42,600 nt of DNA from Phycisphaera sp. Its GTDB lineage: Bacteria > Planctomycetota > Phycisphaerae > Phycisphaerales > SM1A02. Both the position numbers and the translations under genes were made by a program. Location: NCBI GenBank assembly GCA_016124975.1, contig WGMP01000008.1, positions 1-42,600 on the forward strand. Direction: 5' to 3'. Numbering within the stretch: position 1 is the stretch's first letter; each line of letters starts with the position of its first letter. The notes under the pieces are model-generated. The model was not told the origin of the DNA, did not search any database, and saw only the letters and a program-made list of their open reading frames with translations. Shown in pieces: positions 26,816 to 30,263 of this stretch.

Positions 26816-27727
26816 GTGGATCAGTTCCTCGCGTCGCTCTCCGACATCGCGCTTCCCGCCGCCTTCGCAGGCATCGTCGCCGTGCTCGCCACGGTGGCGG
26901 TCGAGCGCCTCGGCGGAACGCTCGGCGGCGTCCTCTCGAGCATTCCCACGACCATCGTTCCCGCGGCGATCGGGCTCTCAGGAGGAAGCCTCGGCGGTTC
27001 GATGGCGGCGGCTGATGTCGACGACTTCCGGCGCGCGATGGCGTTTGTTCCCATCGGCATCCTGCTGAACGCGGGCTACCTCGTCCTGTGGCGCGTGATC
27101 CCCGCGCGGCTCGGGCCACGGCACCGCACGCATCTTCTCGCGGCCACCACCATCGGCGCGCTCGGCGCCTGGATCGTCGCCGCGGCGGCGATCATGACGC
27201 TGCACGAGCTCGCGCAGCCGTCGCTCGCACACGCCCTCGCCGCGGGAATCCTGGCGTTTCTCGCAGGAATCACCCTCGGCGTCGCCGCGAACCGCACCGC
27301 GCACCCCGCGCCAAAGGGGACGCGCCGCGTCGGCGCAGGCGTCCTGGTCCTGCGCGGCGTCGCGGCGGCGGGCGTGATCGGCGGCGCGATCCTCCTGAAG
27401 CGCTCCGGCCTTCCCGTCGCCAGCGGCATCGCGGCCGTGTTTCCCGTGATCTTCACCACGATCATGATCGCGACCTGGCTCGCGCAGGGCGCGCAGGTGC
27501 CGACGGGATCGGTCGGACCGATGGCGCTCGGCACGCTGAGCGTGAGCGCCTTCGCGCTGCTCGCGGCGTGGCTCTTTCCGATCATGCCGATCGCGCCCGC
27601 GACGGCGATCGCGTGGACGCTCTCCATCGCCTTCGTCAGCATCCCTGCGTATCTCTTTCTTCGTGCGCGCCGTGCGGCGCATCGTGCGGCGAGCCAGGGG
27701 ACGAATCAGGGCGCGCGCACGGCGTGA
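26816..27727 (+). CDS. multi-pass membrane protein, possible transporter
   Basis: 303 residues, GTG start with a TACAGT hexamer six bases upstream. About nine hydrophobic segments cover almost the whole length. A conserved-looking patch VERLGGTLGGVLSSIPTTIV (about 28-47) and a similar one in the second half (LPVASGIAAVFPVIFTTIMI) suggest two related halves, as in duplicated transporters. No nucleotide-binding or catalytic motif was seen. Family not recognised. Its end overlaps the convergent photolyase fusion gene by 22 bases, with the last seven codons read on both strands. Confidence 0.78.
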   Translation: MDQFLASLSDIALPAAFAGIVAVLATVAVERLGGTLGGVLSSIPTTIVPAAIGLSGGSLGGSMAAADVDDFRRAMAFVPIGILLNAGYLVLWRVIPARLGPRHRTHLLAATTIGALGAWIVAAAAIMTLHELAQPSLAHALAAGILAFLAGITLGVAANRTAHPAPKGTRRVGAGVLVLRGVAAAGVIGGAILLKRSGLPVASGIAAVFPVIFTTIMIATWLAQGAQVPTGSVGPMALGTLSVSAFALLAAWLFPIMPIAPATAIAWTLSIAFVSIPAYLFLRARRAAHRAASQGTNQGARTA

Positions 27728-30153
27728 GGCCATTCGCCCAGCGCGCGGCCCGCGAGCGCAACGCCCGAGAGATACGCGTCCTCGACGCGCGTGCCGCGGC
27801 GCCAATCGCCCGCGAGTCCGATGCCGAGGTCCGCGTCGAACAGCGCGCCGCCGCCTGCGCCCAGCGACGCAAGCGCGAACCGCCAGCGATGCGCAAGCGC
27901 GTGGTGCGGCTCGGGCGCCGTGACCCCAAGCGACGCTGAGAGCTCGGCGAAGGCCTGCGCGAGCCGCGGCGCGATCGCGTCGGGGGTTTCCTCGAGATGC
28001 ACCTCGCTCCACGCATCCTTCGCAAGGACGACCCAGCGATCGACGCCGTCCTGCGCGCGGCCCGGCTTCGACGAGACGCGCGAGACCCACGCAAGCGCGC
28101 CATGCTCGATCTCGGCGTGGTCGAACGGAAGCTCGACGCGGCCGCGCGACGCCCACATCAGCGCCCACACGGGGCGCATGACCTCGCGCGTGGCGCATGC
28201 GGCGAGGCCGGGCGCCGCCTCGCGAAGGAGCGCCGCCGTCTGCGCCGCGGGCGCGGTCGAGAGCACGACATCGAATTCGTCGGACTCCGCACCGATCGAG
28301 AGCGCCCAACGCCGCCCCGTGCGCGCGATCGAAGCCACCGCGGACTCCGTGCGCAGCACGACGCCCGGACCCGCGAGAAGCCACGCACACAGCGCGTTCA
28401 TGCGCGGAACCGCCACGAATCGAGGCGGTGGCGCGAGCACTTCGACGCAGCCCGCACGGACCGCGGCGAACCGCGCACGCCACTCCGCCACCACGCCGTC
28501 GTCGATCCAGCTCGACACGCGCTGCGCGAACCGCGTGTCGCGTGCGGTGAAGTACTGGGCGCCGTGGTCGAACTCCCCCGCCTCTCCGCGCCGCGTGCTC
28601 ATGCGACCGCCCGCACCGCGCGACTTCTCGAACACGACGACCTCGACGCCGTGCTCGGCGAGCGTGCGCGCGCATGCTGCGCCCGCGATGCCCGCGCCGA
28701 TCACCGCCACGCGCCACGGCCGCGTGCGTCGATGCACGATGCGGGCGTAGGCGTCGAGGTCGAGCCGCGCGGCGTGCGCGTCGATCGGCCGCGTCCGCAC
28801 CGTGCCGAAGACGGGCTGTTCGGGCGCAAACGCGCGGTCGAAGAGCCCCACGCACCAGAGGAGCCCGCCATAGCTCGCTGGGTCGGCGCCATCGAGCGCG
28901 AAGCGGTTGTTCAGGTCGAACAGCATGGTGACCGCTTCCTCGGGTGACCGCGTCCAGCCGACGATCGCCTTGCCCCAGGTCATGCGCAGGTTGTTGTGCA
29001 GTTCGCCGTGCACCACGAGCGAGCGCTGCGCGAGGTCCCACAGAGCCTCGCCCGCTCGGCCCGACGCGAGGCGCTCCCATGAGTGCACGGTGCGGGAATC
29101 GGCGGCGTGCGCGCGCAGCGTCGCCTGCGCCCAGGCGGGGAGCGACGCGAAGGCGCCCGCGGGCGTCGCGTGGAGGGGCGCGTGGCGGCACCAGTGGTAG
29201 GCGAGCTCGCGCCACACGCAGAGCTCGTCGACGAACTTCTCGGCGCCAGCCGCATGCGCCTCGCGCGCGATGCGCATCGGCGAGACCATGCCGTAGTGGA
29301 GATACGCAGACATGCGCGAGACCGCGGGAACGGCCGCGTCGTTTCGGTCGCGCGCATAGTCCGCGAGGCGCGTGGCGCGGAACGCGCTCCATCGCGCGAG
29401 GCCTTCCGACGAGCCTCCGCGCGTGTCGACGACGGGCGCGACGGAGTGGTCGATCTCGAGCGACGCGACGAGGCGCGAGATGTCGAGCGTGGGCCAGTCG
29501 ATCTCTGGAAGTCCGTGCTCGATGCGCGGCCAATCCCGCACCGCGAGCGGCGCACCGCGCCACGGCGCTGCGAGCCGCCGCAGCCGCTCCTCCTTCGTCG
29601 CATCGCTGAACGAGAACGCCCGCGCGTGCAGGCCGCGCACGGCGTTCATCGGCACCGTGCAGGCGGTGTCGACTGCGATCACCGCGCACGGCGCGCGCGC
29701 GGCGAGCGAGTCCACCCACGATGCGAAGGGCTCCGTGGGCATGTCCTCCGTCACGAGCGCCGCGGCGCCGTCGACGAGCGCACGGAGCCGAGCCTCGTGG
29801 TCCGTGGGCAGCGTGGCGTCGAACGCGAACGGAATCCGCAGTTCCGCAAGCTGCGCGGCGAAGTCGCGGAAACCCTCGAGCATGAAGGTCGCGTGGCGAT
29901 CCGAGGGAAAGGGATGCGTTCCCGCGAGCTGGCCGTAGACGAGGAGCGGCAGCCCGTGCACCTCCGCCAGCGCGCACGCGAGCTCGAGCGCGGGGTTCTC
30001 ATCCGTGCGGAGCGCGTGATGGGCCCAGTAGACGAGTGGCTTGGCTCCGTCCCGACGGAGACCGCTCGCAAGCGTGCGCGCGCGCTCAAGAAGTGGCCAC
30101 ACGGACTCTGGAAGCCCCAACTCCTGCGCGATCGAACGATGCTCGGACTCCAT
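27706..30153 (-). CDS. class II photolyase fused to renalase-like flavoprotein
   Basis: 815 residues in one continuous frame. Residues 1-470 are a photolyase of the class II type: LVYWAHHALRTDENPAL at the start of the antenna-binding domain, then ELCVWRELAYHWCR, LPAWAQATLRAHAADSRT, ALWDLAQRSLVVHGELHNNL, RMTWGKAIVGWTRSPEEA and LNNRFALDGADPASYGG. These line up with the FAD-binding half of class II CPD photolyases. At about residue 484 a new dinucleotide fold begins, VIGAGIAGAACARTLAEHG, followed by FEKSRGAGGRMSTRR, the signature of renalase-like FAD/NAD(P)H oxidoreductases, which continue to the C-terminus (GLAGDWRRGTRVEDAYLSG). The first half would repair UV-made pyrimidine dimers with light. 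The second may reduce a flavin or oxidise a dihydropyridine. A GTG at 30171 would add six residues. No clear ribosome binding site. Confidence 0.88.
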   Translation of the reverse strand: MESEHRSIAQELGLPESVWPLLERARTLASGLRRDGAKPLVYWAHHALRTDENPALELACALAEVHGLPLLVYGQLAGTHPFPSDRHATFMLEGFRDFAAQLAELRIPFAFDATLPTDHEARLRALVDGAAALVTEDMPTEPFASWVDSLAARAPCAVIAVDTACTVPMNAVRGLHARAFSFSDATKEERLRRLAAPWRGAPLAVRDWPRIEHGLPEIDWPTLDISRLVASLEIDHSVAPVVDTRGGSSEGLARWSAFRATRLADYARDRNDAAVPAVSRMSAYLHYGMVSPMRIAREAHAAGAEKFVDELCVWRELAYHWCRHAPLHATPAGAFASLPAWAQATLRAHAADSRTVHSWERLASGRAGEALWDLAQRSLVVHGELHNNLRMTWGKAIVGWTRSPEEAVTMLFDLNNRFALDGADPASYGGLLWCVGLFDRAFAPEQPVFGTVRTRPIDAHAARLDLDAYARIVHRRTRPWRVAVIGAGIAGAACARTLAEHGVEVVVFEKSRGAGGRMSTRRGEAGEFDHGAQYFTARDTRFAQRVSSWIDDGVVAEWRARFAAVRAGCVEVLAPPPRFVAVPRMNALCAWLLAGPGVVLRTESAVASIARTGRRWALSIGAESDEFDVVLSTAPAAQTAALLREAAPGLAACATREVMRPVWALMWASRGRVELPFDHAEIEHGALAWVSRVSSKPGRAQDGVDRWVVLAKDAWSEVHLEETPDAIAPRLAQAFAELSASLGVTAPEPHHALAHRWRFALASLGAGGGALFDADLGIGLAGDWRRGTRVEDAYLSGVALAGRALGEWPHAVRAP

Positions 30154-30263
30154 GGGGCACCCGCTTCGCACGCCGCGTCGCCGAGATTCGCAGACGTGGC
30201 GTGACAGGCCGATCCGCGTGGCGTTTCCGACCGAGTCGAGCCGACATCGCCGTCGGGTGAGGC

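Follow-up and report, generated by a model that had tools for sequence, protein, structure and literature searches.

The systems described so far that come closest to the gene treated here are the class II photolyases, which act on cyclobutane pyrimidine dimers (CPDs) in DNA, and the bacterial renalases. In the class II enzyme of M. mazei, Tyr345 serves as an auxiliary outer electron donor to Trp388 and completes a Trp-Trp-Trp-Tyr chain; it is called "almost strictly conserved" in class II (PMC5885780). Efficient photoactivation of that enzyme needs extrinsic reductants which scavenge the outer radical, the flavin of the isolated protein re-oxidises in air within minutes, and mutation of Glu387, tested as a proton acceptor, had a small effect (from ~350 to 500 ps). 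Whether photolyases need photoactivation in vivo or always stay in the reduced flavin adenine dinucleotide (FAD) form, FADH-, is described in the same article as a matter of controversy. Renalases oxidise the 1,2- and 1,6-isomers of reduced nicotinamide adenine dinucleotide (phosphate), NAD(P)H, which arise in vitro by non-specific photochemical reduction, and human renalase is reported to be inactive on ordinary 1,4-NAD(P)H (PMC7660482). In this work, we analyse a stretch of 42,600 nucleotides from a Phycisphaera sp. genome (contig WGMP01000008.1; hereafter the window), in which a single gene joins a photolyase of class II type to a flavoprotein of renalase type.

A single gene for two flavoproteins

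The fusion gene (P0001) occupies positions 27706-30153 of the minus strand, with an ATG start at 30153, a stop at 27706-27708 and 815 codons without internal stops; GTG at 30171 is an alternative start. It encodes one protein, in which a class II-type photolyase (residues 1-471) is followed by a linker of 8 amino acids (aa) and by an FAD oxidoreductase of the bacterial renalase type (residues 480-807), and the joint is genuine. The uninterrupted 815-codon frame with photolyase and renalase-like domains, proposed in a preliminary description of this DNA, is therefore confirmed, and its strand (minus) can be added.

The window has approximately 70% G+C, and a 999-aa frame overlaps the fusion gene on the same strand in another reading frame. 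Because long open frames come cheaply at such a composition, the openness of the fusion frame proves nothing by itself. The frame is backed by protein identity of 42-63% across both halves in relatives. Moreover, the proportion of nonsynonymous differences (pN) was below that of synonymous differences (pS) in 7 of 7 pairs, separately for the photolyase half, the joint region (23 codons) and the renalase half; the gap was narrow for one joint, 0.058 versus 0.098 (pair L090/L091), and pS was near saturation in several of the seven pairs.

The features of the gene are the following:

27706..30153, minus strand: fusion gene P0001, 815 aa, class II-type photolyase plus renalase-type FAD oxidoreductase (family and structure matches, relatives)
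29635..30033, minus strand: photolyase N-terminal alpha/beta (antenna) domain, residues 41-173 (PF00875, E 7.1e-9)
28741..29424, minus strand: photolyase FAD/lesion-binding domain, residues ~244-471 (TIGR00591, class II structures)
28954..29040, minus strand: Trp triad W372, W393, W400 (M. mazei W360, W381, W388), in 25/25 fusions (alignment)
28909-28911, minus strand: N415 (M. mazei N403; alignment)
29083..29085, minus strand: H357, opposite M. mazei Tyr345, adjoining a gap and placed to within about ±1 residue (alignment)
28957..28959, minus strand: G399, at the place of M. mazei Glu387 (alignment)
28717..28740, minus strand: linker, residues 472-479, 8 aa (alignment of 25 fusions)
27733..28716, minus strand: renalase-type FAD oxidoreductase domain, residues 480-807 (4zcc, E 3.1e-54; Foldseek 4zcd, TM 0.94 by target length)
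28681..28698, minus strand: FAD-binding GxGxxG, residues 486-491 (glycines in 25/25 fusions)

An assembly artefact or a frameshift at the joint was ruled out by the recurrence of the fusion, its presence in a genome consisting of a single contig (G330), the continuous frames of relatives and pN below pS; the two-contig genome G367 carries the fusion as well. An internal start yielding two proteins was not supported: the joint region contains an ATG in 4 of the 25 aligned fusions, never preceded by a motif resembling a ribosome-binding site, while a GTG with such a motif occurs there in 3 of 25, so that an internal start is inconsistent across the fusions. A scan of the fusion gene for promoters and terminators gave nothing above chance.

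Distribution of the fusion

Among 392 Planctomycetota genomes, an open fused frame is present in 13 (the window's and single-contig G330 included), belonging to 8 families, and two further fusions occur in metagenome-assembled genomes labelled Myxococcales (L025 and L027). The recurrence in relatives that the preliminary description had left to be checked is thus borne out. When these 392 genomes were searched with a profile, 55 of them gave a total of 56 renalase-type places at E <= 1e-40, the 13 fusions among them; the fusion match in G244 ends at residue 720. Among the listed matches in relatives, the two halves were not seen as adjoining separate genes, nor was a break near 28720 of the kind considered in the preliminary description. 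The only broken copy, in G004 (L010, apparently the same contig as L023), is interrupted inside the photolyase half at approximately residues 83-141, and may be a pseudogene or reflect a sequencing error.

In the window's genus, 8 of 16 genomes carry the full open frame, one carries the interrupted copy, and 7 (78-98% complete) have neither half beyond weak flavoprotein-type matches; both halves are present or absent together. A search of phages gave no match, and viral contigs checked for additional class II rows yielded none that could be confirmed.

For alignment, 25 fusions were used, all with the photolyase first and with linkers of 8-16 aa. Because frame continuity was a criterion of their selection, it does not count as a result. 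The set includes the window, L026 and L027 (cut by contig ends) and L098 (match ending at residue 720). The interrupted L010 was left out, as were the window's own row L001 and, because identical frames showed them to be the contigs of L006 and L010, the rows L022 and L023.

The photolyase half

The TIGR00591 (phr2) family model matches residues 23-471 with 281 bits, which is below its curated cut-off of 550 bits. Other photolyases and CofG were searched in 17 of the 21 genomes known to carry an uninterrupted fusion, and the TIGR00591 cut-off was passed in none of these 17, even by separate class II genes (<= 435 bits); the cut-off thus excludes these unfused bacterial proteins too. Solved class II photolyases match the N-terminal half at E 3.5e-48 to 2e-46, including 8oet (E 3.5e-48) and 3umv (residues 24-469, E 1.9e-47), the latter being the rice class II photolyase. 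An AlphaFold2 model of the window protein reached a mean predicted local distance difference test score (pLDDT) of 73.8 and a predicted template modelling score (pTM) of 0.70, with a confident renalase half and a poor photolyase half (pLDDT ~60), for which alignment rows were few; Foldseek placed this model at a template modelling score (TM) of ~0.6 against M. mazei class II structures.

A tree was built from 25 fused and 29 unfused class II proteins. In it the photolyase halves of the fusions make up a single clade (support 100/100), and none of the 29 unfused proteins placed (the better matches; the weaker ones were not placed, and L050 was dropped for its weak score) falls inside it. The equivalents of W360, W381, W388 and the FAD-binding N403 are found in 25 of 25 fusions, as is each of the lesion/FAD pocket equivalents E301, W305, M379, D409, W421 and R441. 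The assignment of E301, W305, M379 and W421 to the lesion pocket follows in part PMC9649867, from which the positions were transferred by offset.

The outer end of the electron chain differs from that of the unfused proteins. Tyr345 is present in 29/29 unfused class II proteins but in 4/25 fusions, being lost in 21 (H357 in the window), at a position which adjoins a gap in many fused rows; Glu387 is present in 27/29 unfused proteins but in 1/25 fusions, being lost in 24 (G399 in the window). Y376 (29/29 unfused) is N in 25/25 fusions, K384 (29/29 unfused) is A in 23/25, and position 380 is T in 25/25 fusions versus Y in 12 and L in 17 of the 29 unfused proteins. Unfused class II proteins encoded in three fusion-bearing genomes keep Tyr345 (L130 in G330, L124 in G369 and L137 in G198). 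Because H357 stands in place of this tyrosine, we call the window's half class II-type and not a canonical class II member. The fusion clade thus kept the core electron wire (the Trp triad) and changed the outer end of the photoactivation chain, which is consistent with a new donor but is not proof of one.

A search for CofG, as a sign of an own 8-hydroxydeazaflavin (8-HDF) antenna, gave no match over the cut-off in the 17 genomes, and such an antenna was set aside on that ground. An FeS-type (DPRP) photolyase match was found in all 17, a separate class II gene in 8, and a strong FAD_binding_7 match of class I type (with no finer class) in 8. Besides the fusion, the window's genome has two class I-type FAD_binding_7 genes and one FeS-type gene. 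Since other photolyases are present in these genomes, the fused protein probably has a special role and is not the sole repair enzyme. Outside the window, at G000:C16:165107-169580, FeS-type and class I-type photolyase genes lie ~3 kilobases (kb) apart, and the same pair occurs in G001 (C9) and G404 (C84).

The renalase half

The Pseudomonas renalases 4zcc and 3kkj match the C-terminal half over nearly its full length (E 3e-54 and 1e-53), and the best Foldseek match of the model is 4zcd, Pseudomonas renalase with NAD+ (TM 0.94 by target length). FAD-binding residues, whose absence from the second half the preliminary description had considered, are present: the GxGxxG glycines together with G516/R517 occur in 25/25 fusions. 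Fifty positions show at least 85% conservation among 77 unfused renalases, and the window agrees with the consensus at 48 of these 50, the exceptions being L492A and N693V. Some fusions have lost other residues that unfused renalases conserve, Y534 being kept in 19/25, T536 in 18/25 and E791 in 17/25.

Unlike the photolyase halves, the fused renalase halves do not form one clade (0 of 200 bootstrap trees; approximately unbiased test, p 0.00065). The renalase of the G171 fusion clusters with an unfused renalase of G156 from the same family (100/99), and that of the G365 fusion with unfused renalases of its own family (99/82). This tree held 55 of 102 rows (20 fused and 35 unfused; 11 named and 36 further unfused rows were left out), the short L079 and L085 pieces had been dropped from the set, and its long branches call for caution. 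Either the renalase part was swapped repeatedly, or unfused copies became detached on several occasions. The idea that the complete two-domain gene arose once and was then inherited strictly vertically fits the photolyase half but not the renalase half, and was rejected. In L097, L098, L099 and L100, the photolyase half retains the Trp triad and N403 despite long renalase branches.

Renalases and photolyases outside the fusion

The preliminary description had also stated that separate genes of the two kinds lie side by side in some bacteria, and this was found to be the case. A photolyase-type gene lies in the flank (<= 6 kb) of 20 of 60 unfused renalase loci from the genome_contigs collection, although this is no unbiased estimate, since many flanks are truncated where contigs end and resemblance to the window protein guided the choice of loci. 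By our own rough estimate, with few photolyase genes per genome of several megabases, chance alone would give about one such locus or fewer. The flanking photolyases comprise 7 of FeS type, 2 of class I, 9 short ones (one locus having two kinds) and 3 of ~430 aa. On an Asticcacaulis plasmid, the renalase gene overlaps a "FAD-binding domain-containing" gene of the short photolyase type. On a Burkholderia plasmid, the renalase is clustered with MerR, GTP cyclohydrolase I and DUF2256 genes, with a photolyase ~5 kb away, in an arrangement resembling the light-induced cluster described in the available part of PMC9758184. The unfused renalase of G156 mentioned above (L141) directly follows an FeS-type photolyase gene.

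Some of these regions contain unusual genes. At L072:5734-8100, L087:4584-6957, L054:1974-4224 and L064:4625-6996, a photolyase with the FAD domain alone (~275-327 aa) is immediately followed by a ~144-aa gene and then by the renalase. The ~144-aa genes have weak PF00875 matches in three of the four cases (E 7e-4 to 5e-3, all below the cut-off) and none in L087. Together, the two genes look like a split photolyase with reversed domain order, and the ~144-aa protein may supply the domain that "short photolyase-like" proteins lack. Proteins of ~390-440 aa at L056:3684-4967, L063:4804-6126, L070:6981-8270 and L159:6884-8056 have the photolyase FAD domain first and a C-terminal part of ~150-190 aa without assignment; they are perhaps circularly permuted photolyases, and a profile of the split N-domains gave no match to them. 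On a Polymorphobacter plasmid (L160:3536-6984), a renalase-type gene lies near bacteriorhodopsin-like and carotene dioxygenase genes, with no photolyase in the flank.

Genes neighbouring the fusion were compared at 18 loci, setting aside the fusion itself and frames overlapping it. Among the 25 largest clusters none was widely common, and clusters shared by four loci were confined to the window's family, for which reason conserved neighbours were dropped as a clue to function.

Possible functions of the fused protein

The explanation we favour, with a probability of roughly 45%, is that the fusion both repairs CPDs and oxidises 1,2-/1,6-NAD(P)H, two activities against light damage in one protein. 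The N-terminal half would use blue/UV-A light and FADH- to split CPDs in DNA, while the C-terminal half, with its own FAD, would convert 1,2-/1,6-NAD(P)H to NAD(P)+ and pass the electrons to O2, as in known renalases. Sunlight would raise both DNA and nicotinamide damage, and the joining would provide both repairs at a fixed ratio. The completeness of both domains in the window protein, the retained lesion/FAD pocket, the agreement with the renalase consensus, the conservation of the fusion across families, the joint presence or absence of the halves within the genus and the repeated location of renalase genes near several photolyase classes point to such a protein. One suggestion of the preliminary description, the disposal of damaged nicotinamide, stands close to the published renalase reaction (PMC7660482). 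For its other suggestion, a service of the oxidoreductase to the photolyase flavin, the evidence is indirect, namely the loss of Tyr345 and Glu387 from most fusions with all three tryptophans kept.

Several observations weigh against a two-activity protein. At position 693, 91% of unfused renalases have N but the window has V, and the fusions have N in 6/25, another residue in 16/25 and a gap in 3/25; as this position is changed in most fusions, the specificity of the renalase may have moved. The renalase halves of L097, L098 and L099/L100 sit on very long branches (for L098, absent from the 55-row tree, in one tree only), which is odd if the reaction is fixed. No photolyase was seen in the available flank of 40 of the 60 unfused loci, many of those flanks being cut by contig ends. 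Around unfused Planctomycetota renalases, up to 8 kb on each side, a photolyase lies beside 1 of 20 (L141); in G408 a renalase and a class II match are ~4.6 kb apart, on a contig chosen because it was already known to carry both. Within this phylum and outside the fusion, the tie is loose. Finally, if the fusion simply supplied both enzymes together, the loss of Tyr345 and Glu387 in its clade would be left without an explanation.

That loss is what a second, somewhat doubtful possibility would account for: the renalase FAD could take electrons from a pyridine nucleotide or some other donor and feed them to the photolyase FAD directly or to the Trp chain, by quenching the outer Trp radical, and so keep FADH- available in bright light and oxygen. 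The Trp triad persists in 25/25 fusions while Tyr345 (4/25, against 29/29 unfused) and Glu387 (1/25, against 27/29) do not, unfused class II proteins of G330, G369 and G198 keep the tyrosine, the linker is short (8-16 aa), and the dependence of M. mazei class II on extrinsic reductants and the re-oxidation of its flavin in air (PMC5885780) agree with such a role. Yet Tyr345 and Glu387 could have drifted for other reasons, with no unfused clade member found for comparison, the absence of Tyr380 says little since 17/29 unfused proteins lack it as well, and the Glu387 mutation in M. mazei had a small effect. The photolyase half of the model (pLDDT ~60) lends no structural support to the distance and orientation of the two FADs, and the renalases beside other photolyase classes are separate genes in the loci examined. 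Human renalase reportedly does not act on 1,4-NAD(P)H, so reduction driven simply by NAD(P)H is unlikely, barring a change of specificity in this branch. A bolder version, which we regard as rather unlikely, is a self-reducing photolyase: the renalase-type flavin would take over, from the outer tyrosine and from extrinsic reductants, the supply of electrons to the class II Trp chain, a pyridine-nucleotide-fed domain of the same protein chain would keep the repair flavin reduced in light and air, and FeS-type and short photolyases would have a partner of this kind in the form of a separate subunit. Internal electron supply and two separate activities are mutually compatible; the former fits the altered outer chain end, and the latter the tie of renalases to several photolyase classes.

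It is less probable that the C-terminal half is a re-used renalase fold which acts on another substrate, perhaps one derived from DNA or light, or which serves in redox sensing or docking. Replacement of N693 in 16/25 fusions, the loss of Y534, T536 and E791 in some, and the scattering of the fused renalases in the tree would agree with re-use, but the window retains 48 of the 50 conserved renalase positions. A fusion without cross-talk or common purpose, whether an accidental joining kept neutrally or a sequencing or annotation artefact, seems quite improbable. The gene is dispensable, being absent from 7 of the 16 genomes in the genus, and no neighbour gene is widely common; on the other hand, the single-contig G330 and the two-contig G367 carry the fusion, it spans 8 families, 7/7 pairs have pN below pS at the joint as well as in each half, and 0/29 unfused class II proteins fall inside the fused clade. 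The artefact version is already contradicted.

Novelty and significance

No published description of a photolyase-renalase fusion was found in a search of the open-access literature, although such an absence is weak evidence. Both domains are of known kinds; within the literature searched, we found no description of the fusion, the single clade of its photolyase halves, what looks like an exchange of renalase partners, or the altered chain end. A conserved fusion having the Trp triad but mostly lacking the outer tyrosine offers a single protein in which the question of photoactivation can be addressed. Renalase-type enzymes as companions of several photolyase classes could explain the role of bacterial renalases, namely the repair of nicotinamide damage under light. 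The fusion suggests either joint handling of light damage to DNA and redox cofactors or a repair enzyme with its own electron supply.

Comparison with known systems

The PhrSph98-type bifunctional CPD/(6-4) photolyases are a sister group to class II (PMC9649867). We mapped their positions from M. mazei by a constant offset of 9 (N403 = N412), a mapping of our own. On this basis, the fusion protein shares the class II-type fold and the equivalents of N384, E310, M388 and W314, but has T at Y389, E at W381, L at F376 and W at A430 (PhrSph98 numbering). In the electron path proposed for PhrSph98, Y389 is T in 25/25 fusions and W381 is E in 24/25 and R in 1/25; as these two residues are absent, an assignment of the fusion photolyase to the PhrSph98 type was ruled out. 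A fused domain goes unmentioned for PhrSph98 in the available part of that article.

In the light-induced LitR/MerR cluster of P. mendocina, phrB and a gene for an FAD-dependent oxidoreductase lie in one region (PMC9758184, available part), which resembles the pairing in the fusion, but they are separate genes, and the oxidoreductase (PME6625) need not be of renalase type.

Compared with class II CPD photolyases (M. mazei MmCPDII, 2xry/8oet; 3umv), the fusions are alike in domain layout, Trp triad, N403 and lesion pocket (E ~1e-48 to 1e-47). They differ in forming a separate clade, in the changes Y376N, Y380T and K384A, in having mostly lost Y345 and E387, and in the attached second flavoprotein. 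Similarly, the window's second domain resembles Pseudomonas renalase (4zcc/4zcd/3kkj) over its full length (E 3e-54, TM 0.94, 48/50 positions), but it is not a free enzyme, being placed behind a photolyase, and it carries V in place of N693.

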